Source of the DNA: a virus
Reading direction: 5' to 3' (one strand)
Virus record (IMG/VR): IMGVR_UViG_3300018424_000283
Location: 1 to 22,570 of that record
DNA: 22,570 nt
The first letter of the stretch is position 1. Every line of letters starts with the position of its first letter. The translations under genes were made by a program, and so were the position numbers. Positions 1 to 17,400 of this stretch are shown piece after piece. The notes under the pieces were generated by a model. It did no database searches. It was not told the DNA's origin and saw nothing but the letters and a program-made list of their open reading frames with translations.

Positions 1-582
1 AATATCTACACAACTTGGATCAATATCAAAACTGCGAATTTTATCTACCTTCATACCGCTTTCAAAAAGCATTGTAGCAAGTGTAGCATACCAACCTGCA
101 CACAAATACACTGTGCCTAGATCAACTTTAAGTTTTTTTAATTCTTTGACTAGCCAAAGTTTACTTTGTAATTGCCCTCTACTAAAACAATCGTCATCAA
201 TATCAATATTATTAACAAAAAAGTTTTTAAATGCAGATACAAATTGTGTATTTGTATAACGTTCTAAAACAGGCCATAACTTCCAAATATTATCTTCTAG
301 TACAAGTTTACGCAAATCATCATCGTTAAGTAATCTAAATACACTGTGTAAATTATTTTCTGTTACTGCCTTACGTAAATCTTCAGTATCATAATTGTTT
401 ACAACTCTAAAAATACTGTGAAGATTTTCCTCTATAATTGCTTTACGTAGTTCTTCATCTGCATTTAATAATCTAAATAAACTACTTAAATCATTGTCTA
501 TATATGTTCTACGCAAATCTGCTAATTTTGTATTTGTTGGATACAACAATTCAAATCTATCTAGCAACTCAAATGTTTGCAT
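1..582 (-). CDS. SAM-dependent methyltransferase with N-terminal helical repeats (3' end cut off by window edge)
   Basis: An open frame of 194 codons starts at ATG 582-580 and runs without a stop to the left edge, so the C-terminal part is missing. Residues 22-110 hold four tandem units of 21-24 residues with the core LR(K/R)-x5-(D/E)N(L/I), then an aliphatic-Phe-Arg stretch in the first three. They begin at residues 22, 44, 68 and 89 and look like a helical-repeat scaffold. Residues 157-194 (TVYLCAGWYATLATMLF, then SFDIDPSC) match motifs I and II of class I Rossmann methyltransferases: a glycine-containing SAM loop, then an acidic residue at the end of strand 2. The start overlaps the stop of the upstream glycosyltransferase by 14 nt, suggesting coupled translation. 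The substrate is unknown; catalytic motif IV lies beyond the edge. The fold call is fairly secure, the role is not. Confidence 0.72.
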   Translation of the reverse strand, partial: MQTFELLDRFELLYPTNTKLADLRRTYIDNDLSSLFRLLNADEELRKAIIEENLHSIFRVVNNYDTEDLRKAVTENNLHSVFRLLNDDDLRKLVLEDNIWKLWPVLERYTNTQFVSAFKNFFVNNIDIDDDCFSRGQLQSKLWLVKELKKLKVDLGTVYLCAGWYATLATMLFESGMKVDKIRSFDIDPSCVDI

Positions 583-1885
583 TTTTAAATTGCTCCTGTA
601 ACCAATCAAAATCATTAATCTTCTTTAGTGCTTCATTATCTCCTTGATACCTTGCACCATATGCTGCTCCGGATTTTGCACCAGCTATTACATATTTACC
701 GAAAGGTTTATCTGCACCTACTGTACACCAAATCTTTAATCTATTATTAGTTTCTTCGTCTTTTTGTCGATCAATAATTTTACTACTTAATTTACAACAT
801 TCTCTAAATGCACTTTTCCAGGATTCAAATTCGCCTGTATTAAAACTTGTAATATTAGCAATCTTTTTTATAGCATTAAATTTTCTACTAATACTTGTTG
901 TCATATCAGTATTTGATACATCCATATTAATAGTCATACTAGTAGGAAACAATTTTACACCACCATATCCGTATACTAAATCATTTACAGGATTTTGTGA
1001 TCTCCATACAAATACGTGATCGTGTTGCCATCTTGGTACTTGATAATCAAACTTAAAATCATCTACAATTATTGCATCTGCATCAACTATCCAAAACATT
1101 GATGTATCACATACTTTTGCAGCTTCAATATGTGCTTGGTGTATTCCAGTAATGCCGTGAACACGATGTATAACTCTATCCGGAAACTGTTCTAATAAAC
1201 ATTCAAAATTTTCATCAGCGTTTGGTTCGTTATAACTTATAAAAACAATATCATATGGTATTGGCGAAGAAGCATTTATTTCTACATCTATTTTTTTAGC
1301 AAACCAAGCATAATCATACTCGCGACGGGAAACGTGAAAATCTTTGTGCTGCAAAAAAATACCATCATTGTAATAATGATTTTTAAACAAAAAAACAAGA
1401 TCTTTATCCCAATAAGATACTTGATAGTTAAAATCAAAATTTACACTTATATCAGACGGTATTATCCATACAAATTCACTAGTAACGTTTTTTAATTTTT
1501 CTTTATAATCGTCGTAATCTTTAGCGTATATTTTTTCAAATTCAGCAGATTTACTTGCTGTTATATCTACTTCTTTTTTATGTATAAATTGTCTTTGACT
1601 TATTTCTTCATCTGTTAAAATTACATCCTTTGGAAATAAGCATACACCGTCAAATTTTTCTCCGTTTTTAAAAACGTGCGTAACATCTAAACTCCAATTA
1701 TCGGCTTCATAACTAAAATCAAAAGAATCTAATGGAGTAATATCATTCCATATTACCCAAAACATTTTTGTAAAAACTTTTCTTTTTGCGCTATCTAACG
1801 AGTCTGCACGTTTTGCTGTAAAGAATTTTTTCTTTACATTTTTCCAATTACTTTCGTCGTTTCCGATATATACAATATCATACAT
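569..1885 (-). CDS. Phage glycosyltransferase-like protein with three copies of one module (only the last has DxD)
   Basis: 438 residues. The C-terminal third (from about residue 210, YDIVFISYNEPNADENF) resembles a phage family with a GT-A-like fold: MFWIVDADAII at 263-273 carries the DxD metal/sugar-nucleotide motif (D268, D270), followed by VFVWRSQNP and YGYGGVKLFP. The same Phe-Trp-aliphatic / F-D-aromatic-Y / hydrophobic-phenylalanine / LFPKD pattern occurs at residues 41-87 and, more diverged, at 138-182. In those copies the acidic pair is replaced by IWND and IPSD. The enzyme therefore looks like one active domain behind two degenerate copies. A paralogue with the single active module lies at 9525-10445. 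Only 18 nt separate it from the sugar-nucleotide dehydrogenase upstream, which fits shared transcription. Donor and acceptor are unknown. Confidence 0.72.
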   Translation of the reverse strand: MYDIVYIGNDESNWKNVKKKFFTAKRADSLDSAKRKVFTKMFWVIWNDITPLDSFDFSYEADNWSLDVTHVFKNGEKFDGVCLFPKDVILTDEEISQRQFIHKKEVDITASKSAEFEKIYAKDYDDYKEKLKNVTSEFVWIIPSDISVNFDFNYQVSYWDKDLVFLFKNHYYNDGIFLQHKDFHVSRREYDYAWFAKKIDVEINASSPIPYDIVFISYNEPNADENFECLLEQFPDRVIHRVHGITGIHQAHIEAAKVCDTSMFWIVDADAIIVDDFKFDYQVPRWQHDHVFVWRSQNPVNDLVYGYGGVKLFPTSMTINMDVSNTDMTTSISRKFNAIKKIANITSFNTGEFESWKSAFRECCKLSSKIIDRQKDEETNNRLKIWCTVGADKPFGKYVIAGAKSGAAYGARYQGDNEALKKINDFDWLQEQFKNANI

Positions 1886-1903: not shown

Positions 1904-3037
1904 TTATTGTAAATGTCTAGTGTTGCCATAACTTACAGTATAGTTATCGCCTTTGTAAGTACGCCAAGGATCAAATACAGTAAATTGCCCTTTTGGAACT
2001 TTGTCGTTTTCGTGAGCTAAAACAAAAACGCTCGGATTTTCGTTCACTATCCAACCACCGTGTTCTTTTATATAATGTTGTACAAGTAAACTGTAACTAC
2101 CATCTGTATATTCTACGCCAGACTTGTAGCTATCACTACTAAATTGTATCTTATTTCCATATTTAAGTATTTCGATAGCCATATTTTGTGCCTGTTGTTC
2201 TCTTGCATTCATTATACTATCAAAAATGTCATATCCTAAATGTAATTTCTTTGCCATAAATCTTAAAGCAATATTATCTCTAGGATGACAGGCTCCGCCG
2301 TCCCCCATACCGGCTTTCATATAACTAGGACCCATAATTCTTTGTGTACTATCCTTTAAAGCATTGGTTACAATGTCAACATTTATATTACCTTGTTGTT
2401 GTGCTACATCTTGAATCATATTCACCAATCCAATTTTAGTTGATATAAATGTATTATAAAAAACTTTTATACATTCACATTCGTCCCAAGTGCCAACAAC
2501 ATAGCGAGGATCATTTTCCATTATAGTTTTGTAAAAATCTACTAGTTGCTTTGCATCGCCTGTTTCGCTACCGTCTTCGGTACCAATCATTACCATTTCA
2601 GGATTTACCATATCCCAAGCAACTGTTCCCATTGCGATAAGATAAGGATTGTAAACAAATCTTGTATTAGTGATTAACTGAACGAACTCTCTACGAACAG
2701 TACCTGGTAAAACTGTACTTATAAGTACTAGCAATTGATTTTTATTCATATGCTTGTTACACTCTGTTAAAACTTCTTTAACAATGTTATAAGAGAAGTC
2801 TTTAGGCTCAAGGTGTGCTGTTGGAGCTCTGCCGTCATAATCTGGATCGTGTGGTGTAGGTACTGCAACAAATACAATATCTCTACCATTTACTGCTCCT
2901 TCTATAGTAGGAAACTGATCAACATTGTTAGTCTTATATTTTTTAATATCATAACCTGTAACATTATGTCCTTTAGAAGCAATAACCTCTGCACAAGGTA
3001 AACCTAATTTACCTAGACCTATAAAACTTATATTCAT
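1904..3037 (-). CDS. Nucleotide-sugar 6-dehydrogenase (UDP-glucose/GDP-mannose dehydrogenase family)
   Basis: 377 residues from the chosen start. Family members oxidise C6 of UDP- or GDP-sugars to the uronic acid using NAD. Visible signatures are the N-terminal Rossmann loop MNISFIGLGKLGLP (G7, G9, G12), STVLPGTVRREF at 108-119, the central-helix motif KVFYNTFISTKIG (K191, N195, K201), and GDGGACHPRDNIAL at 246-257, whose C250 aligns with the catalytic thiol of the classical GGSCFPKD motif. The shortened C-terminal part (VFVLAHENDKV, FDPWRTY) matches the distal nucleotide-sugar-binding domain; the total is below the usual 390-450 residues. A longer frame reaches 3073, but a strong AAGGAG six bases before ATG 3037 and the fold starting right there favour the shorter protein. 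It is divergent from the plus-strand cassette across a 76-nt region. Whether the sugar is UDP-Glc, UDP-HexNAc or GDP-Man is not readable here. Confidence 0.86.
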   Translation of the reverse strand: MNISFIGLGKLGLPCAEVIASKGHNVTGYDIKKYKTNNVDQFPTIEGAVNGRDIVFVAVPTPHDPDYDGRAPTAHLEPKDFSYNIVKEVLTECNKHMNKNQLLVLISTVLPGTVRREFVQLITNTRFVYNPYLIAMGTVAWDMVNPEMVMIGTEDGSETGDAKQLVDFYKTIMENDPRYVVGTWDECECIKVFYNTFISTKIGLVNMIQDVAQQQGNINVDIVTNALKDSTQRIMGPSYMKAGMGDGGACHPRDNIALRFMAKKLHLGYDIFDSIMNAREQQAQNMAIEILKYGNKIQFSSDSYKSGVEYTDGSYSLLVQHYIKEHGGWIVNENPSVFVLAHENDKVPKGQFTVFDPWRTYKGDNYTVSYGNTRHLQ

Positions 3038-3113: not shown

Positions 3114-3701
3114 ATGTTTGAAAAAATTTTAGATTTTGAAAATAAATTATCAGAATTTACAGGTGCTCCTTATGTCGTTACTACCGATTGTTGCACTCAC
3201 GCTATCGAATTATGTTTATATCTAGATGAAGTTAAAGAGTGCAATTTTAGTGCGTTTACATATATAAGTGTTTTACAAACAATGCACAAATTAGACGTTA
3301 ATTACAATTTAATAGAAGAACACTGGATAGGAGAATATAATTTACACAAAACAAGAATTTGGGACAGTGCAAGAAGATTAGAACCTAATATGTACCGCAA
3401 AGGTCAACTTCAGTGTTTGAGTTTTGGTTATAGTAAACCGTTAGACATAGGGAGGGGTGGCGCAATATTATTAGATTCGAAAGAAGATTATAACAAACTT
3501 AAAAAATTAGGATACGACGGCAGAGATTTAGAAATTCAACCTTGGATTGACCAGCAGGAGTTTTCTATAGGATATCATTATAAATTAAATCCTGAAGAAT
3601 GTATAAAAGGTATAACATATTTAGATTATTATATTAAAGCAAGAAAATTTGATCCAATAAATGTAGTATATCCCGATTGTAGGAAAGTAAAAATAAAATG
3701 A
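3114..3701 (+). CDS. Minimal DegT/DnrJ/EryC1/StrS-type PLP aminotransferase-like protein
   Basis: 195 residues, about half the usual 360-400. The order of signatures follows the DegT/StrS family of sugar aminotransferases. The N-terminal helix is MFEKILDFENKLSEFTGAPYVV. TTDCCTHAIELCLYL at 23-37 corresponds to the SSGTxAL phosphate-binding turn. IWDSARR at 82-88 has D84 at the position of the Asp that pairs with the PLP pyridine nitrogen. LSFGYSKPLDIGRGGAILL at 102-120 has K108 as the expected Schiff-base lysine. Several inter-strand segments are shortened and the C-terminal small domain is almost absent, so it may work as a tight dimer, need a partner, or be degenerate. First gene of the plus cassette; its stop overlaps the next start (ATGA). 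Family assignment is reasonable; activity is uncertain. Confidence 0.62.
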   Translation: MFEKILDFENKLSEFTGAPYVVTTDCCTHAIELCLYLDEVKECNFSAFTYISVLQTMHKLDVNYNLIEEHWIGEYNLHKTRIWDSARRLEPNMYRKGQLQCLSFGYSKPLDIGRGGAILLDSKEDYNKLKKLGYDGRDLEIQPWIDQQEFSIGYHYKLNPEECIKGITYLDYYIKARKFDPINVVYPDCRKVKIK

Positions 3702-4369
3702 AAATATTAATTTGTGGCGACAGTTGGACATCCGGTTACGGTGTTGATTATAAAGATAGTTGGCCAAACTTAATTGGTTATGGGTATATTGATACTTCAG
3801 AAATAGGTGCTTCTAATGATTTAATAGTTACACGTTTTTTAGAAAATTATAATGATACTTATGATGCTGTAATTATAGGATGGAGCGGAGTTACAAGATT
3901 TTGGGACGGAAAAGCTAGAGATTTTTCCAGTGTTGATAATAATGTAGTCGAATATTATAAAGATAAAAGTTTAAATGATATACTTGTAAATTGGGATAAT
4001 CAAATTTCAAAAATTTTAGAAACTGCAAAAGTGCCAGTTATACAATACAGCGTATTTGGTGATATACCTATTAACAAAGATTATTTTTTAGAAAAAAGTT
4101 ATTTAGAATTTCTTGCTAATAAAAGCGGAGTATTTTTTAATTATCAAATACCTATATTTGAATTTGACTGGCTAAATGAAAATAATTTAAAAATGACTGA
4201 GTCATTTGGCGAAAAATATTTTCCTCGTAAATGGAAGAGAGCTTGTGTAGAAAGAGAAAACTTACGTGGTACTGGATATTTTTTAGATTGCGGACATCCT
4301 ACTGCTGAAGGACACAAATTATGGGCAGAATATATAAAAGAGAAATTAAATGATATATTCAGTAAATGA
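3698..4369 (+). CDS. SGNH/GDSL-type hydrolase or acyl-group enzyme
   Basis: 223 residues. The N-terminus MKILICGDSWTSGYGVDY carries the GDS block with S9 as the expected nucleophile. IGASNDLIV at 36-44 fits block II with its oxyanion-hole glycine. IIGWSGVTRFW at 59-69 occupies block III but lacks the typical GxND asparagine. YFLDCGHPTAEGHKLWAEYI near the end gives the D197-x-x-H200 pair of block V. Family members are esterases, or acetyl-transfer/removal enzymes acting on polysaccharides. No signal peptide is visible, so it should act in the cytoplasm or in the virion. The start overlaps the upstream stop by four bases and its 3' end overlaps the amidinotransferase by 20 nt, so the three genes are probably co-translated. 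The exact substrate is unknown. Confidence 0.75.
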   Translation: MKILICGDSWTSGYGVDYKDSWPNLIGYGYIDTSEIGASNDLIVTRFLENYNDTYDAVIIGWSGVTRFWDGKARDFSSVDNNVVEYYKDKSLNDILVNWDNQISKILETAKVPVIQYSVFGDIPINKDYFLEKSYLEFLANKSGVFFNYQIPIFEFDWLNENNLKMTESFGEKYFPRKWKRACVERENLRGTGYFLDCGHPTAEGHKLWAEYIKEKLNDIFSK

Positions 4370-5264
4370 ATGGGACCAGTTAAAAAGAATAGTTGTAGGT
4401 TCAGCAACAAATGCTCACTGGCCTGTTCAATGTCCTATATTTAGAAATCAAGAAAAAACAACATTGTGGAAAGAAACTCCTGTCCCTGCTGGGCCTGTTG
4501 ACGAAAATATAATTTTAGAAGCTAACAAAGACTTAGATAACTTTTCGTCAATCTTAAAAAACTATGGTGTAGTTGTTGAACGACCTACAGAACTTGATTT
4601 TCATTTATTTGACGGTATGTATAACTATTGCCCGAGAGACAGATTACTAATTGTTGGTGATAAAGTGATTGATGCTCCTATGCTTTACCCTACTAGAAAA
4701 AAAGAAATAGAAGCATTAAATCATTTGTTGGACACAGAAATAATTATTTGCAATGATCCGGAAGCAACCTTTGATGCTGCAAATATCTGTAGGCTAGGAA
4801 AAGATCTTTTATACTTAGTAAGCGAAAGTGGAAATATTAAAGGTGCTAAATGGTTACAAGAAACTTTAGGATCAAAGTACACAGTTCATATATTAGATAA
4901 TCTATATAGCGGTGTACACATAGATAGTACAATTAGTCCAGTTCGAGAAGGATTAGTTGTTGTAAACGGTGATAGAATTAATTCTAATAATATGCCAAGT
5001 GTTTTTAAAAAATGGGATGTTATTAGTATTTCGGGAAAAGATTTAGTGGCACAGCCTTTTATAGACTATCCTTACGCAAGTAAATATATAGCACTCAACT
5101 TTTTAGCAATTAATCCTAATACTGTAGTTTGTGATCCATTTCAAACAGTTTTAAGAAACGAATTAGAGAAAAAAAACATAGAAACAATCGGATGTGAGCT
5201 TCGACATAGCAGAACCTTAGGAGGTGGACATCATTGTGTTACACTAGATTTAGAAAGGAATTAA
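4350..5264 (+). CDS. Amidinotransferase (glycine/inosamine-phosphate amidinotransferase family)
   Basis: 304 residues. The family moves an amidino group, usually from arginine, to an amine via a covalent cysteine adduct. Visible family blocks are VNEWDQLKRIVVG at the N-terminus, YCPRDRLLIVGDKVI at 93-107, FDAANICRLGKDLLYLVS at 141-158 (D142 in the position of the catalytic Asp), GVHIDSTI at 188-195 (H190) and LGGGHHCVTLDL at 290-301 (C296, the nucleophile). All three catalytic positions are present, so the enzyme should be active. It is shorter than vertebrate AGAT (about 420) or StrB (about 350). It starts inside the SGNH gene and ends one base before the next gene. Next to a DegT/StrS-like aminotransferase, an amino-sugar or amino-cyclitol acceptor is attractive, but glycine or another amine cannot be excluded. 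Confidence 0.87.
   Translation: MIYSVNEWDQLKRIVVGSATNAHWPVQCPIFRNQEKTTLWKETPVPAGPVDENIILEANKDLDNFSSILKNYGVVVERPTELDFHLFDGMYNYCPRDRLLIVGDKVIDAPMLYPTRKKEIEALNHLLDTEIIICNDPEATFDAANICRLGKDLLYLVSESGNIKGAKWLQETLGSKYTVHILDNLYSGVHIDSTISPVREGLVVVNGDRINSNNMPSVFKKWDVISISGKDLVAQPFIDYPYASKYIALNFLAINPNTVVCDPFQTVLRNELEKKNIETIGCELRHSRTLGGGHHCVTLDLERN
5255..5259 (+). promoter_or_regulatory. Shine-Dalgarno site supporting a GTG start
   Basis: AAGGA lies six bases before GTG 5266-5268. The neighbouring ATG at 5264 is in another frame and hits TAG after four codons, so GTG is the only sensible start for the following gene. Confidence 0.65.
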
Positions 5265-5265
5265 T

Positions 5266-5763
5266 GTGTGGTATATAGACAAATTGCCTGAAGGTATAAT
5301 TGACGATAGCTATAAAACATTGCCTTACATTAAAGAACCATTTAATGATCCTACAGCAGTTAAAGAATGGATACAAATTTATGGTAATATTTTTGACACA
5401 GGTGAAATGGTAGATTATAGACACCCACAACCGGAGTGGACACAAAAAATTATTGAGTATACTGGTTTAGGTTTAGCAGGTAGTAGTTACTATAAAATGA
5501 ATCCTGGAAAAATACTTCCTTACCATAGAGATGCATATGTAAGATATATCGATTATCACAAATTAGAAGAAGTTGAAAGAATACATCGTGCTATTATATT
5601 TTTAGAGGACTGGCAGCCGGGACATATATTTGAAATAGACGGATATCCTTTAACAAATTACAAATCTGGAACTATAGTAGTATGGCAATATGACACTCCA
5701 CACCTTGCCGCTAACTTAGGTACTAGTGACAGATACACTCTTCAAATTACCGGAATAAAATGA
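5266..5763 (+). CDS. Cupin-fold Fe(II)/2-oxoglutarate hydroxylase-like protein (aspartyl/asparaginyl hydroxylase type)
   Basis: 165 residues from a GTG start. The C-terminal two thirds look like a double-stranded beta-helix oxygenase. KMNPGKILPYHRDAYVRY at 77-94 gives an H87-x-D89 metal pair, PGHIFEIDG and SGTIVVWQYDTPHLAANLG supply the distal H146, and the last strand RYTLQITG supplies R156, the usual 2-oxoglutarate anchor. The pattern is closest to the aspartyl/asparaginyl beta-hydroxylase-like group seen in many marine phages. It starts one base after the amidinotransferase stop and overlaps the next gene by four bases, so it belongs to the same cassette. It could hydroxylate the cassette's sugar product, an amino-acid side chain or a nucleobase; nothing here decides. 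The fold call is moderately secure. Confidence 0.6.
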   Translation: MWYIDKLPEGIIDDSYKTLPYIKEPFNDPTAVKEWIQIYGNIFDTGEMVDYRHPQPEWTQKIIEYTGLGLAGSSYYKMNPGKILPYHRDAYVRYIDYHKLEEVERIHRAIIFLEDWQPGHIFEIDGYPLTNYKSGTIVVWQYDTPHLAANLGTSDRYTLQITGIK

Positions 5764-6938
5764 AATATCCAAATATTGAAATAATTACTGAAGATAAAAA
5801 TATCTTTTTTGACGAGAATGGCATCTTCAAAGAAACATACTTATTCCGTGAATCAGACTATCTTTACCAAAAAATAAACAAAGATACTGTATTACTTGTA
5901 ATTTCGCAAAATATAAAAAAAGTAAATCCAGTAGTACAGTTCCTATTAGAGAATAAGATAAAAGAAATTATTTTTGTAATAGATGACATATTCCGTATAT
6001 CTTACAAAGGACAAATTTTACCTATGATGGAGGGTAAGGTAATAGAATCTGATTTTGAAAACACAAAACTTTTAGAAATAGAAATAATATCAAACATTTT
6101 ATCACATACACAAATAAAAAAATTTGATGTATTTCATTGTGAAATTATTCCAGATGATATTAAAAATAAAATAGGATATGATATAAAATATTACGACAAG
6201 TTTTTAAATACTTGGAAAAAATTCAAATCACATCATTTAGATAACATAGAAAATAATTTAAATTTTGAATATAAAGTATCTTCTTTATCAAACAGATGGG
6301 ATTATCATAGAACATTTATTACGTCACTTTATTATGATAATCCAGAATTTTCTTATACATTTTGTGAAAAGCCTGATCAAGATGATATGTTAGACAATAA
6401 TAGTTTAATTATTAAACAATTTCCAAAAAACGTTCGTAAAAGACTAAAAAACAAATTAAATAATTTTTTAGATACACCTTGTGTATATTTAGATGAAAAA
6501 TACGAACAAACAAGTACAAATAATATACTAGACTATCAAGTACAAAACAACTTAAATGTATATACACATATACAAAATAGTTTTGTAAATGTTACAAATG
6601 AAACTAGATTTGTTTCTCCTATGCAATATATAAGTGAAAAATCATTCAAGCCTATAATGTGCTTTAGGCCTTTAATAATGCTAGGACCGCCCGGAAATCT
6701 TAATATTTTAAAAACTTGGGGCTTTAAAACATTTAATCAATGGTGGGACGAAAGTTATGATTTCGAAAAAAATCACCACAAAAGATTTTCAATGATTGTA
6801 AAAATAATAGATGAATTATTAATAAAAGACAAAAAAGAATTATGTGATATGTTAGATAGTATGCAAGATGTTTTAGAGCATAACTACAATATTTTTACAA
6901 AATTTAACAGCGAATTTTATAAGTTAGTAAGTAACTGA
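5760..6938 (+). CDS. Phage glycosyltransferase-like protein of the LNR...SEKxxKP family
   Basis: 392 residues, last gene of the plus cassette, starting in an ATGA overlap. The N-terminal half is not recognised. The middle has SLSNRWDYHRTFITSLYY at 175-192, equivalent to LCLNRRPSAQRLALYEF in the paralogue at 6917-8131. The C-terminal part YISEKSFKPIMCFRPLIMLG (290-309), then GFKTFNQWWDESYD (321-334), has a Ser-Glu-Lys-x-x-Lys-Pro block and a Gly-(F/Y)-x-TF-acidic-SYD block. This resembles the C-terminal donor-binding half of GT10-like (fucosyltransferase-like) proteins, where a (T/S)EK motif contacts the nucleotide. That resemblance is from memory and only local. No signal peptide or membrane segment is seen. 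A sugar-transfer role fits the cassette but is inferred. Confidence 0.6.
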   Translation: MKYPNIEIITEDKNIFFDENGIFKETYLFRESDYLYQKINKDTVLLVISQNIKKVNPVVQFLLENKIKEIIFVIDDIFRISYKGQILPMMEGKVIESDFENTKLLEIEIISNILSHTQIKKFDVFHCEIIPDDIKNKIGYDIKYYDKFLNTWKKFKSHHLDNIENNLNFEYKVSSLSNRWDYHRTFITSLYYDNPEFSYTFCEKPDQDDMLDNNSLIIKQFPKNVRKRLKNKLNNFLDTPCVYLDEKYEQTSTNNILDYQVQNNLNVYTHIQNSFVNVTNETRFVSPMQYISEKSFKPIMCFRPLIMLGPPGNLNILKTWGFKTFNQWWDESYDFEKNHHKRFSMIVKIIDELLIKDKKELCDMLDSMQDVLEHNYNIFTKFNSEFYKLVSN

Positions 6939-8131
6939 TTAACTAACAAAGATAAATCTTTGTTCCTTTTTTCTAGATTATTATAATTATGTTCTAAAAT
7001 AGGTATCATTGAATTAAGATCCTTTTTAATATCCTCAAAGTCTCTAGAAATAAATTTATCAATAGAATTGCAGGTAGCTAAAAATCTTTTATTATAATTT
7101 TTTATTTCGTCGTAAGATTCATCAATAAAACTATCAAAGGTCTTATAGCCTAAAGATTTTAAATATTTTAAACTATTTGCCTGTCCAAAAAGAATAAAAG
7201 GTCTCATAAAAAATATAGGTTTAATTATTTTTTCACTAAAAAACATCCTATCAGATTTATCAGTATAAAATGTTTCACTCACAATATGTAAATATGATTC
7301 GTAATATTTCCTTAGTTTGATATCGTGGGTAGGATTATTAAAAGTCATATCTTCATAATCTATTACTGCTGGCAGTGTTTTAGATAAATTTTTTTTGTTA
7401 AATCTTTTATATATTTTAGGAAATTTTTCTGCAAATTCTTTAATTGCAAAATCTATATTATCATTATTTGCAATATCCACTGCTTGAGATACTAATCCGT
7501 ATTGCTTATTATTAATAAATTCATAAAGAGCTAAACGTTGCGCACTAGGACGTCTATTTAGACACAAAAATTTATATTTTAAATTTTCATTATTTTTTAT
7601 TTTCTTTAATGATAATTCTTTAAAATTTATTTTGTGTTTATTATAGAAAAGATATATATCTTCAAATCTATTATGATATATGTTTATTACACCGTTAGGG
7701 CTTTGTCTTACTAAATTACCTGTTAAATATATTACATTAGAAAAATCTAAATCATACTTTTTTAAAATTGTCTCATAAACAGTATTATCTAAATAACCCA
7801 AATTCCAACCTTCTAATGTGTTGTGAATTAAAAGTTTACATTTTCCATCTTTTATTGATTTAACAATATCAATTGGGATAAAAAATGAATCCCAAAGCAA
7901 CTTTCTGTCTTTTACATCTACATCGTAAGGAAAAAGCCAGTGTGATAGATACACAGGATAATAAAACTTATTAGTGCCTACACTGTTAATAAAATCTATA
8001 TGTTTTGCATCTATCGGATCAGTTACACTATAATCATTATCAGTATACTTCCCCCAGGTATCATTATTAAATCCGTTGAAAAGTTTATTTTTATCTCTGT
8101 ATAGGGGAACTTTTATACTAGGGCTTTGCAT
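6917..8131 (-). CDS. Phage glycosyltransferase-like protein, paralogue of the 5760-6938 product
   Basis: 404 residues. YKFLCLNRRPSAQRLALYEF at 186-205 and FFSEKIIKPIFFMRPFILFG at 297-316, followed by LGYKTFDSFIDESYD and EHNYNNLEKRNKD, match the same blocks in the same order as the plus-strand 392-residue protein. The two N-terminal halves differ. The genes face each other tail to tail and overlap by 22 nt, so each encodes its C-terminus on the antisense of the other's. It is the last gene of the seven-gene minus operon and overlaps the radical SAM gene by 19 nt. Glycosyltransferase function (GT10-like C-terminal half) is an inference from motif similarity and context. Confidence 0.62.
   Translation of the reverse strand: MQSPSIKVPLYRDKNKLFNGFNNDTWGKYTDNDYSVTDPIDAKHIDFINSVGTNKFYYPVYLSHWLFPYDVDVKDRKLLWDSFFIPIDIVKSIKDGKCKLLIHNTLEGWNLGYLDNTVYETILKKYDLDFSNVIYLTGNLVRQSPNGVINIYHNRFEDIYLFYNKHKINFKELSLKKIKNNENLKYKFLCLNRRPSAQRLALYEFINNKQYGLVSQAVDIANNDNIDFAIKEFAEKFPKIYKRFNKKNLSKTLPAVIDYEDMTFNNPTHDIKLRKYYESYLHIVSETFYTDKSDRMFFSEKIIKPIFFMRPFILFGQANSLKYLKSLGYKTFDSFIDESYDEIKNYNKRFLATCNSIDKFISRDFEDIKKDLNSMIPILEHNYNNLEKRNKDLSLLVNQLLTNL
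6945..6972 (+). terminator. Intrinsic terminator closing the plus-strand cassette
   Basis: Six bases after the stop at 6938 lies AACAAAGA-TAAA-TCTTTGTT, a perfect 8-bp stem with a 4-nt loop, then CC and six T (6967-6972). It is oriented for plus-strand transcripts. It sits entirely inside the 3' coding end of the convergent gene (6917-8131). On the minus strand no U-run follows the hairpin, so it should stop only plus-strand transcription. Confidence 0.72.
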
Positions 8132-9528
8132 ACGTGATAAAATTCTTCCATTTCAGGGAAAGTTTTTAAGAAGTCTGTTCCTCTGCGTCTATCGTGTTCT
8201 GTTACAAATTTATAAAAATCTGCTCTATTGCGATTTACTTCATCAATATGCTTATAACTTTCTGATAATTTTTCTTGGAATACTTGATAATTCCTTCTCA
8301 TACGTGTTATTTCGTGTTCATAAAAACCCATACCACACAATGGAGGCCAATCAATTTGTTCTTTATTTAAGTACATATAAGTAACCTGGTCTTTCATAAT
8401 ATTAAGGTAACTATGATCTAATATAAAAACACTCTGATGTTGTGGCCATCTAAGATATGCAGCATCCATACTTACTGGATTTCGTCTTTCTGGGCCTGTG
8501 TTGAACTCATATCTAAACTTAATAAAGTCTTGCATAAACTCTTTGTAAGTTGTTACACTCAAAGCATTATAAGTTGCCATATTAGTTAATTTGCTTTGTG
8601 GGATTTCATTTAATATTCTATGACAGTTATCTAGCCATTTGTTATAATCCAATCCGTGTCTAATATATTCTGCTTTTGCGCCTTTTGCTTCACAACTTGT
8701 ATACAATTTAAATTCTTTAATCATACCCTCTGATTGTATGCGTTTCATTTTTTCTATCAAACTATCTATCATCGAATCAGGAACGCACAAATTACTATTA
8801 ATATTCAATTCTAATTTAGGATTAGGATTTTCAATTATATAATCAAGCACCTTAAATGTATCTTTACACATTAAAGGTTCACCGCCTGTTATTCTAAAAA
8901 CTTGTAAGCTAGGATATAGTTCAGGCCACCATTTCCAAAATGCTTCTACATATGGATTGTGTTCTCTGTGTGGTATAGGTAATCTGTTTTCTCTTTCTAA
9001 GACATCCAAATTATTAAATCGAGTACTTGTAGGATAAGGTCCAAATTGTTTTATTTCTTCCATCCATTTACTACTAACTTCAGGTAAACAATAAGAACAT
9101 TTAAAATTACATACGCTACTAAAACTTACTTCTAAATATTTTGGATTAATATTTTTGGTAAAAGGATTATTTGTGATTTCTGAAAAATACGGATAGCTCC
9201 AATCTTCAGCACTTTTCATTACACGGTCACTAAACACAACATTATCTTTATCCGAATCTTCAATATTCCAACAGTAATCGCACTCTTCAGGTCTTTCGCC
9301 TTCGAGCATTTGTTTGCGTTTTTCTTTTTTGTAACTAGTATTATGTAATGCACTAGGATCAACTTCAATTTCTTGTAAAGGTATTTTATGTGCAGGTACG
9401 TGGTGGCAGCTATGTGTCATTCCTGTTTGAAGGTGTAAAGTTACTTGTGTCCATTTGGCCAAACATAGTGAACAACTTTTATTGTTTAGTTCACTTTGTA
9501 CACTTCTATAATCGTTTGCTTGTGTCAT
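8113..9528 (-). CDS. Twitch-type radical SAM protein
   Basis: 471 residues. SSVCNFKCSYCLPE at 137-150 is the CxxxCxxC motif (C140, C144, C147) binding the [4Fe-4S] cluster that cleaves SAM to the 5'-deoxyadenosyl radical. FRITGGEPLMCKDTF further on is the GGEP SAM-contact motif. An N-terminal extension has additional cysteines (C19, C22, C41, C83, C86; CSLC, SCHH, ECDYC), which could hold an auxiliary cluster or zinc. The protein matches the "twitch domain" radical SAM proteins common in marine T4-like phages, whose substrates are unknown. It starts in an ATGA overlap with the glycosyltransferase upstream and runs 19 nt into the next gene, so it is embedded in a sugar-transfer operon. It may modify a sugar, a peptide or a nucleoside. 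Confidence 0.92.
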   Translation of the reverse strand: MTQANDYRSVQSELNNKSCSLCLAKWTQVTLHLQTGMTHSCHHVPAHKIPLQEIEVDPSALHNTSYKKEKRKQMLEGERPEECDYCWNIEDSDKDNVVFSDRVMKSAEDWSYPYFSEITNNPFTKNINPKYLEVSFSSVCNFKCSYCLPEVSSKWMEEIKQFGPYPTSTRFNNLDVLERENRLPIPHREHNPYVEAFWKWWPELYPSLQVFRITGGEPLMCKDTFKVLDYIIENPNPKLELNINSNLCVPDSMIDSLIEKMKRIQSEGMIKEFKLYTSCEAKGAKAEYIRHGLDYNKWLDNCHRILNEIPQSKLTNMATYNALSVTTYKEFMQDFIKFRYEFNTGPERRNPVSMDAAYLRWPQHQSVFILDHSYLNIMKDQVTYMYLNKEQIDWPPLCGMGFYEHEITRMRRNYQVFQEKLSESYKHIDEVNRNRADFYKFVTEHDRRRGTDFLKTFPEMEEFYHVCKALV

Positions 9529-10445
9529 TCTTTTTCCAAAAATTTGTTTGACATTCTCATTGGATTTTGATAAATTTCTTTAAAAAATTTACTGTGAGGA
9601 CCATCCAATGGTTTTGTAGAAATAGGAATATTTAATTTGTCTTTTAATATATCCCCTAAAACTTCAATTTCTTGTAATAGATTTTTTTCTGTTAAATTTT
9701 TTGTTAATCCGTCCCAGTGCGAATTTAAATATTCAAAATCTCTTACGTTAATATAATCCCAATCAGTACACATTGTTTGATATAAACCTTCTCTAGCACC
9801 ATAGATAGCCCAAAGTCCGTTTTCTACATCTGCGCCGACCATTAACCAAATATATAGTCTATGCAAGTTTTTCCAATGATTTTTATGAAAGTCCTCGACA
9901 CTTACTTTTACGCCTCTATCTAGTGCCATTTTTACACCTTCACGAAATCCTGCTCTCCAGGCCTGATGTGGAGTAGAATTGTTATGCACATCACAATACA
10001 CTCCTTCCATTTGAATGTATTGTACGTCCCAGCAAAAATCAACTTGTGCGTGAGGGTTATTAGGATCGGCATTTTCGTGAGTTTTCATATTCAAAACAAA
10101 TTCTTTAGGCCAACATTTAAGTCCGCCATTACCGTATATTAGGCCGTTAATCATATTATTTCCTGCCCAACTTATTACACAGTTTGACAAATTTTTGTTT
10201 TCGTCAAAGTCTATAGTTTGATTTAAAAACTCTTGCCTAATAATATTATCGCCATCTACTGTGATAAATCTATCTGTTTCACTTAATTCAGCACAAGCTT
10301 TGTGTGCAGCATCTGAACCTTTTACACCGTGTACACGTTTTGCCCAAGGAACTTTGCTGCATAAGTCTGCGTAATTTTTTTCAGCATTTGGTTCATCATA
10401 ACTTAGATATATTATATCGTAGTCTAAAACTTTAAATTTTTTCAT
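9525..10445 (-). CDS. Phage glycosyltransferase-like protein (single-module paralogue of 569-1885)
   Basis: 306 residues. DYDIIYLSYDEPNAEKNY at the N-terminus, KRVHGVKGSDAAHKACAEL at 37-55, and FITVDGDNII at 60-69 with the DxD pair D64/D66 align with the third module of the 438-residue protein at 569-1885. So do INGLIYGNGGLKCWP and the tail HQAWRAGFREGVKMAL ... YIWLMVGAD. The full set of motifs suggests an active GT-A-like enzyme using a nucleotide sugar and a divalent metal. Start and stop overlap both neighbours by four bases (ATGA), placing it in the middle of the minus operon just before the radical SAM gene. Donor and acceptor are unknown. Confidence 0.73.
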   Translation of the reverse strand: MKKFKVLDYDIIYLSYDEPNAEKNYADLCSKVPWAKRVHGVKGSDAAHKACAELSETDRFITVDGDNIIRQEFLNQTIDFDENKNLSNCVISWAGNNMINGLIYGNGGLKCWPKEFVLNMKTHENADPNNPHAQVDFCWDVQYIQMEGVYCDVHNNSTPHQAWRAGFREGVKMALDRGVKVSVEDFHKNHWKNLHRLYIWLMVGADVENGLWAIYGAREGLYQTMCTDWDYINVRDFEYLNSHWDGLTKNLTEKNLLQEIEVLGDILKDKLNIPISTKPLDGPHSKFFKEIYQNPMRMSNKFLEKE

Positions 10446-13149: not shown

Positions 13150-13872
13150 CTACATTTTCCGCTGATGATCTAGAAATTTGTTACCTTGGGTGTCTTCACC
13201 ACGCCAATATCTCTTTCCTACACCGTGCGGTTTTTTCTTGTCGACGCTGTTGCGTTCAATTCCTGCATTTTTCATTTCTTGTTGTTCAAGTTGAATGGCG
13301 TTTTCACTAAAATAATTTTCAGCAAGTTCTATTTCAAATTTATCAACAAAATATCTAGGAATAGGCATAACTGCACTTATTATATCTCCTTTTTTTACTT
13401 CTACTACTAGCTTAGGAGAAAGTATTTTTAAGTTAAAAGTAAAGTCTCTACGTAAATTATCTGTTTCAACTACTGCGGTCATATTAGATAAATTTGGTAT
13501 AAAATAATTAGGAGGATTCATTACCATTAAATTAATACCGGGAGGAGTTCTAAATGTAAATCTATTTTGTACAGTAATAAGTCCACTTCCAAAATGAGCA
13601 CTTATTGTTTGTTTACTGCAAGGACTTGTTTTTATTGTAACATCATTAGGCGCTTCTCCACCATTCCATTCTGCTGTAAAATCACAACTACTCCTTATTG
13701 CAAAACCGTATTGATTTCCAATGACTACAGGCAAACAGTGAGCAACGTGTTTGTTGACCCAGTCTCTTGTTTTCATTCCTTTTAATGGTTGTACTATATC
13801 TAGATAATCATCTTTATGATATATCGATTCTGGTACAACTAATATTTTGTTTTTTGGAAAATTATTAAGCAT
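13150..13872 (-). CDS. DUF6065-like protein
   Basis: 240 residues. The signature order fits what I remember of DUF6065 proteins: a DWVNKHVAHCLPVVIGNQYGF start, FTAEWNGGEAPNDVTIK, SAHFGSGLITVQNRFTFRTPPGINLMVMNPPNYFIPN (residues about 92-127), AVVETDNLRRDFTFNLKI and VVEVKKGDIISAVMPIPRYFVD. The second half before residue 185 is a beta-rich domain. The C-terminal 40 residues are charged with a KRYWRG block. The function of the family is unknown; it is common in marine phages and some bacteria. It overlaps the upstream oxygenase gene by 8 nt, so the two are probably co-expressed. The charged tail resembles short basic tails seen in several DUF6065 homologues, but I cannot verify that here. Confidence 0.68.
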   Translation of the reverse strand: MLNNFPKNKILVVPESIYHKDDYLDIVQPLKGMKTRDWVNKHVAHCLPVVIGNQYGFAIRSSCDFTAEWNGGEAPNDVTIKTSPCSKQTISAHFGSGLITVQNRFTFRTPPGINLMVMNPPNYFIPNLSNMTAVVETDNLRRDFTFNLKILSPKLVVEVKKGDIISAVMPIPRYFVDKFEIELAENYFSENAIQLEQQEMKNAGIERNSVDKKKPHGVGKRYWRGEDTQGNKFLDHQRKM

Positions 13873-14392
13873 TTTTTGTCAAAAATAGAACTATTGTATA
13901 TCTTTCACCAGATTTAACTTCAGTTACTCCGTGTAAATATTCTTTTGTACCTTCAAATTGTACAAGTGTTCCCGGAGTTGTTTCTGGTTGTAAATTTTGG
14001 TTTGGAAAAAATATTTGGCCGCCTTCGTAATCTTCATTAAGATAGATTAATACACTATAATGTCTATTAGGATAAGGGTGTAGAGAACCGTCGAGATGTT
14101 CACAATCTGCGTGAGGAGGGTCTAGTTTATCTCCTTTGCGCCATCTTACCAACTGAAATGTTTCTATCAAACATTTGGTTTTGTATTTTGTTTCTATAAT
14201 TTGTCGTACGTTTAATCCTATGTCGTCTAACAATTGTTGTATATCTTTATTAGATATATTACTTTTATGAATAAATTTTTCAGACCAATGGTCGTTTGTA
14301 ACTATCCAGTCATTTGTTGTTGTTACATAATCTACGAGACTGTTAATATTATTCTTATTTAAAAAATTATTATCTATATAAATGTCCTGCAT
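13865..14392 (-). CDS. Prolyl-4-hydroxylase-type Fe(II)/2-oxoglutarate oxygenase
   Basis: 175 residues, a compact version of the P4Hc domain. LDPPHADCEHLDG at 90-102 has the H94-x-D96 metal pair, HYSVLIYLNEDYEGGQIFFP at 111-130 is the typical YLN-x(5)GG-x-(F/L) strand pair, and TPGTLVQFEGTKEYLHGVTEVKSGERYTIVLFL at 139-171 supplies H154 and R164 (2-oxoglutarate). All four expected ligands are present. Such proteins hydroxylate proline or other residues, or nucleic acid bases. It lies just downstream of a virion protein with three poly-proline linkers, which would be an obvious if unproven substrate. It is separated from that gene by 47 nt and overlaps the DUF6065-like gene by 8 nt. Confidence 0.86.
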   Translation of the reverse strand: MQDIYIDNNFLNKNNINSLVDYVTTTNDWIVTNDHWSEKFIHKSNISNKDIQQLLDDIGLNVRQIIETKYKTKCLIETFQLVRWRKGDKLDPPHADCEHLDGSLHPYPNRHYSVLIYLNEDYEGGQIFFPNQNLQPETTPGTLVQFEGTKEYLHGVTEVKSGERYTIVLFLTKNA

Positions 14393-14439: not shown

Positions 14440-17400
14440 CTACGGAAGCAAACCGCCTGATATTGTGAACGAAGCACCATCTGAACCTGCGCCTGTTTGC
14501 GCAACTCCTACAGTATAGAAACCAGTTGGAAGTTGAGCAGATATAGTATCAGTACCGTTTGCATCTGTTGTTCTACTACCAGATGTATATGCTGCGCCGT
14601 CTTTGTACACTGAATACGCATACGATGTATTTGGTATTCCGCCTGTGATACTGACATACGCTGTCAAACCTACTGCTACTGCCGTAACCTGAATAGCATA
14701 CGTCGGAGGTGGCGGAGGCGGTGGTGGTGGCGGAGGCGGAGGTGGTGGCGGAGGTGGTGGCGGAGGTGGTGGCGGAGGTGTTGAGACTGCCGAAACTATT
14801 GTAAACGCTTGATCTACTACAGTGCCATTTAAAACTAAATCTGCTCTCCAAGTACCTACTTGCCCGATACCTGTACTTGTACTTCCACTAGCACTCGAAC
14901 TAAATAATCCTTGGAATACATTATCTTTATAAGCGTTTACGGCCACAGTTGTTGCATTGCTACTGCTCCAGGTAATAGTATAAATGTCTGATGTAGTTCC
15001 AGATAGAGGAGATATACTAACACTTCCAGTTGGTCCAGGGGGCGGTGGTGGAGGTGGTGGAGGTGGCGGAGGTGGTGGCGGAGGTGGTGGTGGTGCTGCA
15101 CTTACAAAGATAGTATCTGTATCTAGTGTATCTGTACCGTGCGCTAGTGCTGCTGTATGGATTCCTCCTGCAGTAGCAGTAAAAGTTCGAGAACCAGAAG
15201 TTCCATTAACTGGGCCAACAACTATACTATTCAATCCATAATAAGCATAAGCTGTAACTGTAGTGGTTGTATTACTACTTGTCCAGGTTACTGTTATTGT
15301 GTCTCCTACGTTATATACACCTGATCCTTCAAAATAAATATTTCCAGTTGGTCCTGGTAAGCCGACTGCAATAGTATCACTTGCTGTTACGTACTTTAAT
15401 GTGTTAGTGGCATCATAATAAGATGATGCAATACTTGCTCTCCAATTGCCTGTATTAGCTAGAACTTCGTATGTTAAGGCGCCACCCGGTTTTGTAGTTG
15501 AACTTACAACTGCTGTAGTAGACGATGGCGGATATATAGCAGCATAGGTAGTATTCGCACCAGTACCAGCGGTGTAATCAGCACGTATGGTTTCTCCTAT
15601 AAACGCAGACGCAGCGTCAAACGCAATAGTTGGGTTTGGAATAGTTACTGCTTGATTAACAGTTAATGCTGGATTAGTTGATACTGTAATTTCTAGGGAT
15701 GTATCAATTAAATTATATATTTTAATATAACCAGTCCAGGTACCTACTTGGTCTGCTACGCCAGATGCTGATCCTGACTTTGTGTTATACCTATTAGGAT
15801 TAACATTACCTGATGGACTTATTACATAAATGTCATACCCAAATAAGGTTGCAGAGTTATAGCCGCCGTCCCAAGATAATGTAAATGAAGTAGAATTTAC
15901 TGTACCCGATGTTGGTGACCAAGATATTGCAACATTATCATAAGTAGGTGAGGGGTTCGCAACAGGTGTTTGGCTAGTGTCATTGATAGTTATTGACTGA
16001 CTAGCAACTGCTCCGCCCGATGCTGTTTTTCTGACGTTAATTGTTTTAGATTCTGCACCTTCTGTGGTTGCATCTGCTATAGGACTTAAACTAAAACTTC
16101 CGGAATTATTAAACATCGAGAATGATCCACTAGATGTACTAAAATCTGATCCGCCCGTTACATCCCAATATAATGTAGGTGCACTTGCCCATCCTGTAGC
16201 TGTTACTGTATAAGTACCAGAACTTCCTTCGTTAATATTACTGGGTCCACTTATGCTATAAGTTGGTTCAACTGGAGTGACTGCATAGTATGCACTTGTA
16301 CCGTCAGAAAAGTTAACAGTTATTGTTACACCTTCTCCGAAGCTTGTAGACATTGTAACAGGAAAAGTAGCTGTTCCACTAGCATTGGTTGTGCCCGACC
16401 CGCTATTGCCTGAAGTTAATTCTGTAGCAGACCAGGTAAAGTTTGTATTAGGGCGAGCATAATAGATATATACATCACCATCCGGATTTCCGGTAGCAGA
16501 TACAATACTAACACTAGGACTATATACTGCTGTTACCGTAAATGTAAGTGAACTAGCTAGGTCAGGGTTAGGCACTGATACATTATATGTTCTTTGTCCT
16601 GCTGAACCAAAAGATACTGTAGAAGTATAATTGCCGCTACTGTTAAAAGTTCCTGTAAATACGTCACTGCCCGAAACACTAAACGATCCATTAGGTCGAC
16701 CTGTTATAGTTAAAGTTGCATTTTGATTTACATCAGGCGAACTAGGACTAATAGATATAGTGCTTTGATATACATCTGTTACAGTATAATTTAACGTTGT
16801 TGAGTTGTTACTAAATGCTTCTGCAATAGTAAAACTATATGATCCTGCAGGGGAAGTTTGTATTTGTATTGTTGCCGTTCCATTAGAATCAAATACAAAA
16901 GCACTAAGGGATTGACCATTAATACTAAACTGTCCGCCGGGGAAACCTCCAGCTATAGTAACTTCTCGATCTGCGCCTGTCGCGCCTTCTATTACTGTAA
17001 AATTATTTCTACTTAAACCTAGCACAGCAGTAATTGTATAGTTTGTCGAAGCTGTCAAAGGGCTATAACCAGACACATTTTCAAAATGTGAAGTATATGT
17101 ATAATTTCCAGGTTTTGCTTGTAACCTAGTAAAAACTAATTGTCCATTTGCAGGAATAGTTGCCCCTGTTCCAGGTAATCCTTTTGGTACATCAGCCACA
17201 GACGGATTATTACTAGTCACAGAACCAAGATGTTCGGTATTAGGAGGACCAACTACAGTATGTGTGAACGAATTATACACAGGAGAAGATGTCGGATTAA
17301 CTGTTGTACTGTTTACTCCCGAAGGTAAATCATCATTAATAAGCGTTAGTGAAGTACTAGCACTATCACCTGTATCTCGATGTGTCCAAGTTACCGTCAT

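Follow-up and report, generated by a model that had tools for sequence, protein, structure and literature searches.

What would a phage do with an amidinotransferase resembling StrB1 of streptomycin biosynthesis, encoded in the same run of genes as a protein that bears the cofactor-binding residues of a sugar aminotransferase? The question is raised by the complete IMG/VR record IMGVR_UViG_3300018424_000283, a stretch of 22,570 bases analysed here in full (the window). On its + strand, from 3114 to 6938, the list of open reading frames (ORFs) holds five touching or overlapping genes, in the order compact DegT-type protein (mini-DegT), SGNH-type enzyme, amidinotransferase (AMT), oxygenase and glycosyltransferase-like protein (GTx), the successive junctions being a 4-nt overlap, a 20-nt overlap, a 1-nt gap and a 4-nt overlap. 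A gene for a UGDH-like dehydrogenase lies divergently, directly upstream of this cassette; downstream, on the - strand, are found a second GTx-type gene (GTy), a radical S-adenosylmethionine (radical-SAM) gene (NF033640) and further glycosyltransferase (GT)-like genes, followed by long repeat-rich proteins. A preliminary description, made from the sequence alone, had read the cassette as a route to a guanidino sugar; its ORFs were correctly listed, but it omitted the UGDH-like gene, the radical-SAM gene and the fact that a domain is missing from the DegT-type protein. Gene order, protein families, invariant catalytic residues, folds and recurrence are matters of observation, and the reading that we prefer, in which the cassette builds a guanidino sugar and attaches it, has in our judgement about an even chance of being right.

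The amidinotransferase and the mini-DegT protein

A phmmer search with AMT gave StrB1 (1bwd) as the top match at 1.3e-60, with AGAT, HsvA and SxtG at about 1e-30 to 1e-32, and a profile built from 26 AMT relatives scored StrB1 at 320 bits, against 184-194 for AGAT, SxtG and HsvA (human AGAT 194). The AlphaFold2 model of AMT (predicted local distance difference test score, pLDDT, 93.7) superposes in Foldseek on 1bwd with a template modelling score, normalised to query length (TMq), of 0.92 and 36% identity; identity to AGAT, HsvA and SxtG is 25-27%. Residues D142, H190 and C296, already picked out in the preliminary description, align with D254, H303 and C407 of human AGAT and with their StrB1 equivalents, and are invariant in 23 viral AMT sequences. 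The same 23 rows all keep the residues corresponding to human AGAT D170, D254, H303, D305, R322 and C407, and 22 of them also S355. AMT has the pentein fold, its catalytic Asp, His and Cys, and the active-site residues that it has in common with AGAT.

The 300-flap of AGAT-type enzymes bears on substrate choice (PMC4887976). It reads FKDPNPMHID in AGAT, RK-LYASTHVD in StrB1 and LD-NLYSGVHID in the window AMT, which is one residue shorter here than AGAT, as is StrB1; the glycine enzymes AGAT and CyrA have a longer flap (five-residue DPNPM or DIFPS), and this glycine type is not present in the window AMT. Since StrB1 is the best match and the substrate flap is shortened, a glycine or creatine label would be wrong, and AMT falls on the StrB side rather than with the free-glycine enzymes in profile, structure and flap. 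Viral amidinotransferase matches have nevertheless been catalogued as K00613 glycine amidinotransferase (PMC8226683), and creatine-pathway genes in viruses have been discussed (PMC11360552). With StrB1 126 bits above AGAT and no glycine-type flap, we rejected a glycine/creatine AMT, and consider it extremely improbable that the gene is an auxiliary metabolic gene for guanidinoacetate or creatine (GATM). If the guanidino-sugar reading is true, it corrects the labelling of viral amidinotransferases as such genes.

AMT resembles StrB1 in fold and flap, but its acceptor is not readable from the tree. In a quick maximum-likelihood tree (all trees used here are of this kind) the viral AMT form a separate clade of 21 viral rows and one row from a metagenome-assembled genome (MAG), with a Shimodaira-Hasegawa-like approximate likelihood ratio support of 100, and StrB1 groups apart from it with actinobacterial rows. 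StrB1 is also the longer protein by some 40 residues, with an excess of about 26 ahead of the catalytic Asp. The description of AMT as StrB-like therefore holds for fold, sequence and flap, but not for clade membership. The streptomycin-style cyclitol setting proposed with it was dropped: family searches of the cassette proteins recognised neither a cyclitol dehydrogenase (inositol dehydrogenase) nor an inosamine kinase.

The mini-DegT protein matches Pfam PF01041 at 46.2 bits (4.7e-12; gathering score 19.8), a family that all 21 aligned homologues match as well. The Lys (K108) and Asp (D84) noted earlier sit in the pyridoxal 5'-phosphate (PLP) motifs of the DegT family, and T28, D84, S103 and K108 are invariant in 78 of 78 distinct mini-DegT sequences. 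In a profile alignment K108 falls on K185 of WbpE, of which a K185A mutant is in the PDB. The AlphaFold2 model has a pLDDT of 90.5, and the best 50 Foldseek matches are DegT-type/fold-type-I structures, mainly sugar aminotransferases, at probability 1.0, so that the short protein does superpose on a DegT fold, a check proposed in the preliminary description. The template modelling score is about 0.7 on query length and about 0.38 on target length, the latter being low because only the large domain is present. Mini-DegT thus shares the large-domain fold and the PLP Lys, Asp, Ser and Thr motifs with DegT sugar aminotransferases such as GDP-perosamine synthase, ArnB and WbpE, but is a one-domain protein of 195 residues, against the two-domain proteins of about 370 usual in the family, with no C-terminal domain and a shortened middle; an hhalign comparison against one phage DegT of full length yielded nothing usable. 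Its profile scores perosamine synthase and WbpE at about 1e-7 and inosose aminotransferases at 8e-4 to 5e-3; although all these scores are low, they favour nucleotide sugars over cyclitols as substrates, and the term StrS-like proved too specific.

From sequence and model, mini-DegT is probably a PLP enzyme of fold type I pared down to the large domain, with transamination of a keto-sugar as its putative reaction; as a natural minimal PLP domain it would be of interest to enzymologists. It would have to be something else if it catalysed a different PLP reaction, or merely bound a sugar nucleotide, with the amine coming from the host. Such a role would suit a protein of this size that has no small domain, in which an invariant His (H155) takes the place of the Asn in the usual GxNxR motif and Arg stands three positions after the Asp. 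The PLP Lys, Asp, Ser and Thr are, however, invariant throughout, and the best PDB profile matches are aminotransferases. In DegT-family sugar dehydratases the PLP Lys is replaced by His, and mini-DegT keeps the Lys. We therefore think it quite unlikely that mini-DegT is not an aminotransferase.

Recurrence of the gene pair in phages

The cassette is not an assembly error, since four IMG/VR contigs, the window included, share the gene order and a 100% identical AMT. A 64-kb contig with an identical AMT overlaps the window and contains its end, and beyond it carries tail-fibre, baseplate, endolysin and SbcCD genes. Its SbcC is nearest to those of large myoviruses, for example Sinorhizobium phage Phosso (469 kb) and Pseudomonas phage PA5oct, and the virus bearing the cassette is a large T4-like aquatic phage.

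The wider distribution was assessed by pattern-based scans of up to 80 loci each; the IMG/VR contigs are fragments and their ORFs were called mechanically. The AMT query led to 37 viral loci. All viral core-AMT loci, clustered at 80% identity, formed 26 clusters, and within 3.5 kb of AMT these had DegT in 20, UGDH in 21, the oxygenase in 24, GTx in 21, radical SAM in 11 and SGNH in nine. Three of the clusters came through the DegT query and one, S-SCSM2R, through both, which slightly inflates the DegT count; leaving these four out gives 16 of 22. A separate sample of 80 loci, chosen on UGDH, contained both AMT and DegT in seven, DegT only in six, AMT only in one and neither in 66 (Fisher p 4e-6; 1e-4 after 90% dereplication). 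Among phages with UGDH, AMT and DegT are found together much more often than expected by chance. Likewise, all four large AMT genomes checked (176-382 kb) have a mini-DegT. The gene pair thus recurs with sugar-nucleotide genes in many phages, and none of the three refuting outcomes named in the preliminary description was observed. The order is variable (DegT-SGNH-AMT, DegT-AMT, oxygenase-DegT-AMT, or DegT several genes away from AMT), a pattern that speaks for a functional link and against one frozen segment, and mini-DegT proteins from AMT-bearing loci are spread over several branches of the mini-DegT tree.

A version of the cassette is present in the cultured cyanophage S-SCSM2R, where the genes SSCSM2R_301-310 include in one run DegT (305), radical SAM (306), GT (307), 2-oxoglutarate (2OG) oxygenase (308), AMT (309) and GT (310), and this makes the idea directly testable. 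The UGDH gene, unlike that of the window, lies elsewhere in the genome and is only 29% identical. GenBank names among these genes are 'inosamine amidinotransferase' and '3-amino-5-hydroxybenzoic acid synthase'; the record is annotated gene by gene and proposes no pathway. Overlapping genes for AMT, a GTx relative, mini-DegT and a carbamoyltransferase also follow one another on a phage-like contig from a Chloroflexi MAG.

Phage islands with an amidinotransferase are not new. The T4-like Campylobacter phages CP220 and CPt10 were described in 2010 as having exchangeable modules in which five radical-SAM genes accompany a 'glycine amidinotransferase', and these were not interpreted as sugar synthesis (PMC2853527). 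Their module resembles the window in lying near baseplate genes, in combining AMT with radical-SAM genes and, in CP220, in also containing genes with sugar-transferase domains. It differs in that the AMT is only 24-29% identical, and in that no mini-DegT, UGDH-like gene or matching oxygenase was detected among the genes tested. The statement that no such phage pathway had been described stands in so far as we found no open-licence paper joining phage amidinotransferase and aminotransferase genes into a guanidino-sugar pathway, but the islands themselves had been noted. If the guanidino-sugar reading is true, phages produce a sugar with a positive charge of which the open-licence literature searched has no viral example, the enzymes being much smaller than their cellular homologues, and the presence of amidinotransferase and DegT genes in aquatic phages would be explained.

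These distant islands bear also on a different reading, in which AMT guanidinylates some other amine (of a polyamine, amino acid or amino lipid, or a lysine in a protein) and DegT, UGDH and GT do no more than share a tailoring island with it. Enzymes of related fold do act on polyamines (HsvA) and on amino acids (AGAT, AmtA); cyanobacterial AMT relatives adjoin ATP-grasp ligases; and the CP220/CPt10 AMT is accompanied by radical-SAM genes with no mini-DegT detected among those tested. The sequence and flap of AMT, however, side with StrB1 and not with AGAT, SxtG or HsvA, the mini-DegT and UGDH genes are persistently adjacent to it, and even the CP220 AMT has sugar-transferase-domain genes beside it. 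We regard this reading as rather unlikely, though it deserves to be taken seriously.

A possible route to a guanidino sugar

The UGDH-like gene probably starts at 3037 and not at the listed 3073 (its relatives begin at the equivalent of 3037). Among loci reached through AMT, the catalytic residues C250, K191, N195 and D254 are invariant (18/18), and in the same 18 proteins PYLIAMG replaces PEFLxEG, that is PEFL(R/K/A)EG, the motif of UGDHs defined in PMC9927302; the UGDH scan was seeded partly with NPYLIAM, so its own count of 80/80 for the motif is biased.

For the sequence of events in the guanidino-sugar reading, we infer substrates (the AMT acceptor included), product, order of steps, carbonyl source and target as follows. 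The UGDH-like dehydrogenase would oxidise a nucleoside diphosphate sugar, and mini-DegT would aminate a carbonyl of the oxidised sugar; AMT would then move the amidino group of arginine, via its cysteine, to the new amine. The 2OG-Fe oxygenase, the SGNH enzyme and, in some phages, radical-SAM or carbamoyltransferase genes might tailor the sugar. The GT-like genes would finally attach it; the likeliest target is a glycan of the virion or tail, given that the cassette lies close to tail genes, and the host surface is less likely. The carbonyl could be supplied by another enzyme (from the host, or the oxygenase or radical-SAM protein), or else the dehydrogenase might stop at an aldehyde. In one version of the latter, the UGDH-like enzyme stops at the C6 aldehyde, mini-DegT aminates it and AMT produces a 6-deoxy-6-guanidino nucleotide sugar. 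This would be a three-enzyme path to a guanidino sugar without a keto-sugar dehydratase, but we hold it to be improbable. In cyanophage Bellamy and pelagiphage HTVC008M the UGDH-like gene stands alongside NadE-like, carbamoyltransferase and methyltransferase genes, and the NadE-like neighbours fit a carboxylate product, which argues against the C6-aldehyde version.

Several observations weigh against the preferred reading. No cassette enzyme is a clear source of the 3- or 4-keto sugar required by DegT enzymes, and both Glu residues of PEFLxEG are gone from the UGDH-like protein. Mini-DegT lacks the C-terminal domain and part of the middle, so its activity is not assured. GTx found no informative or glycosyltransferase match in Pfam, PHROGs or PDB sequences, which leaves its identity as a GT unconfirmed. 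DegT is absent from the 3.5 kb around AMT in six of the 26 clusters; in one of these six, a 317-kb record, a mini-DegT lies about 95 kb away. Conversely, core AMT is missing from 66 of 78 mini-DegT loci in one scan and from 72 of 80 UGDH-like loci. Phage glycan islands often contain dehydrogenase, DegT and GT genes, so that part of the co-occurrence may come from the sharing of such islands. The cellular relatives of AMT, finally, stand in mixed contexts, with ATP-grasp/ABC genes in cyanobacteria and a GlmS-like gene in Paenibacillus and Mesorhizobium.

Some further features of the UGDH-like genes were noted. In Bellamy, HTVC008M and a 642-kb phage the altered motif reads NPYLIAMG, NPYLIAQG and NPFFIAMG, respectively, and in all three a NadE-like gene (identified by eye in the 642-kb phage) is adjacent to the UGDH-like gene or one gene from it. 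The huge phage LR756502 has a UGDH-like gene about 5 kb from a mini-DegT. In a 176-kb record (L006:3096-6696, - strand) the UGDH-like gene apparently carries two inteins (the Pfam intein match is below cut-off): one is at the active-site motif KxxxN, and the other, which is split, falls precisely on the catalytic Cys, a 269-residue gene lying between the two halves.

The wider sugar toolbox and the accessory genes

Mini-DegT is by far commoner than AMT, with at least 598 confirmed viral stretches in one scan. A mini-DegT profile that did recover the viral records gave no match at 1e-10 in 690 (292 + 398) sampled bacterial genomes of two phyla, among which there was no positive control. At most of the 78 mini-DegT loci, GalE-like epimerase and FolE genes flank mini-DegT, and QueD, QueE-like and GT-like genes follow; in Flavobacterium phage immuto it adjoins a pilin-glycosylation protein and an epimerase. 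Mini-DegT and the UGDH-like enzyme are pieces of a modular phage sugar toolbox, in which AMT is one optional decoration, an add-on, since most mini-DegT phages are without core AMT.

In a conserved block (L046-L121, for example L057) the order is GT, GalE-like, mini-DegT, FolE, HIT-like, QueD, GT, radical SAM, SGNH and QueE-like, which places mini-DegT in a neighbourhood of 7-deazaguanine type. Phage 7-deazaguanine modification employs FolE, QueD and QueE (PMC6884629), and the position of the larger mini-DegT group between GalE-like and FolE/QueD/QueE-like genes would suit a cassette that makes a DNA hypermodification and not a glycan. We consider this very unlikely for the window, where no base-modification genes are found among those annotated, nor in the 64-kb relative, and where the cassette adjoins tail and baseplate genes.

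A second, divergent amidinotransferase-like family of 325-379 residues recurs near mini-DegT/GalE/FolE (L062, L080, L085, L091, L093, L095, L097, L110 and L119). Its reaction may differ, because each of the seven rows checked has Asn or His in place of the catalytic Asp.

One bacterial case looks like a swap of one aminotransferase for another around the same AMT. In a Bdellovibrionota MAG (L196:521-4890) the oxygenase and AMT genes overlap at their ends and are accompanied by a GTx relative and a compact class I/II aminotransferase-like protein (weak Pfam match, 0.0084), on a contig with chromosomal-looking genes (SpoIID and, by eye, a UvrC-like gene). A protein of the same kind (33% identity) occurs at viral locus L043 with mini-DegT, oxygenase and AMT. 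Such a swap fits an AMT that needs an amine-making partner.

The features of the window are collected in Table 1. Among the neighbours first described, the overlapping SGNH gene and the downstream oxygenase are borne out, and the glycosyltransferase assignment of the last cassette gene found no database support. The HxD...H triad is present in 46 of 46 oxygenase homologues and the 2OG-binding Arg in 44 of them; GDSW and DxxH blocks are visible in the SGNH protein.

Table 1. Genes of the window discussed in the text, with the evidence for each assignment
Feature	Position	Strand	Basis
Glycosyltransferase family 2-like protein	569..1885	-	PF13641 7e-4, under cut-off
UGDH-like nucleotide-sugar dehydrogenase	1904..3037	-	PF03721/PF00984; phrog_9148 2e-97
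Mini-DegT, compact PLP sugar-aminotransferase-like protein, 195 aa, K108 and D84	3114..3701	+	PF01041, AlphaFold2 model, Foldseek
SGNH/GDSL hydrolase- or acyltransferase-like protein, 223 aa, accessory	3698..4369	+	PF00657 5e-4, under cut-off
StrB-type amidinotransferase (AMT), 304 aa, D142/H190/C296	4350..5264	+	Sequence, profile, AlphaFold2 model, site table
2OG-Fe(II)-type oxygenase, 165 aa, H87-x-D89...H146...R156	5266..5763	+	Triad; S-SCSM2R homologue annotated 2OG-Fe(II) oxygenase
GTx, putative glycosyltransferase, 'SEK..KPI...GFKTF..DESYD' family	5760..6938	+	Inference
GTy, second GTx-family member, converging with the operon	6917..8131	-	Alignment
Twitch-domain radical SAM protein, possible tailoring enzyme	8113..9528	-	NCBIfam NF033640 1.1e-96
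Putative glycosyltransferase related to the 569-1885 gene	9525..10445	-	Same cluster as 569-1885; no Pfam match of its own
Repeat- and proline-rich protein, 1791 aa, candidate sugar acceptor	14440..19815	-	ORF; adjoins tail-fibre/baseplate block (64-kb contig)

A role in anti-phage defence was set aside, since PADLOC reported nothing beyond a weak viperin-like hit on the radical-SAM core. The - strand also encodes a DUF6065 protein (13150-13872) and a PF13640 2OG-Fe(II) oxygenase (13865-14392), both located between the cassette and the genes for the long repeat-rich proteins. Tryptophan-halogenase-like genes were seen near AMT cassettes at two other loci, L198:12840-14069 and L002:27253-28662, the latter annotated as PrnA.

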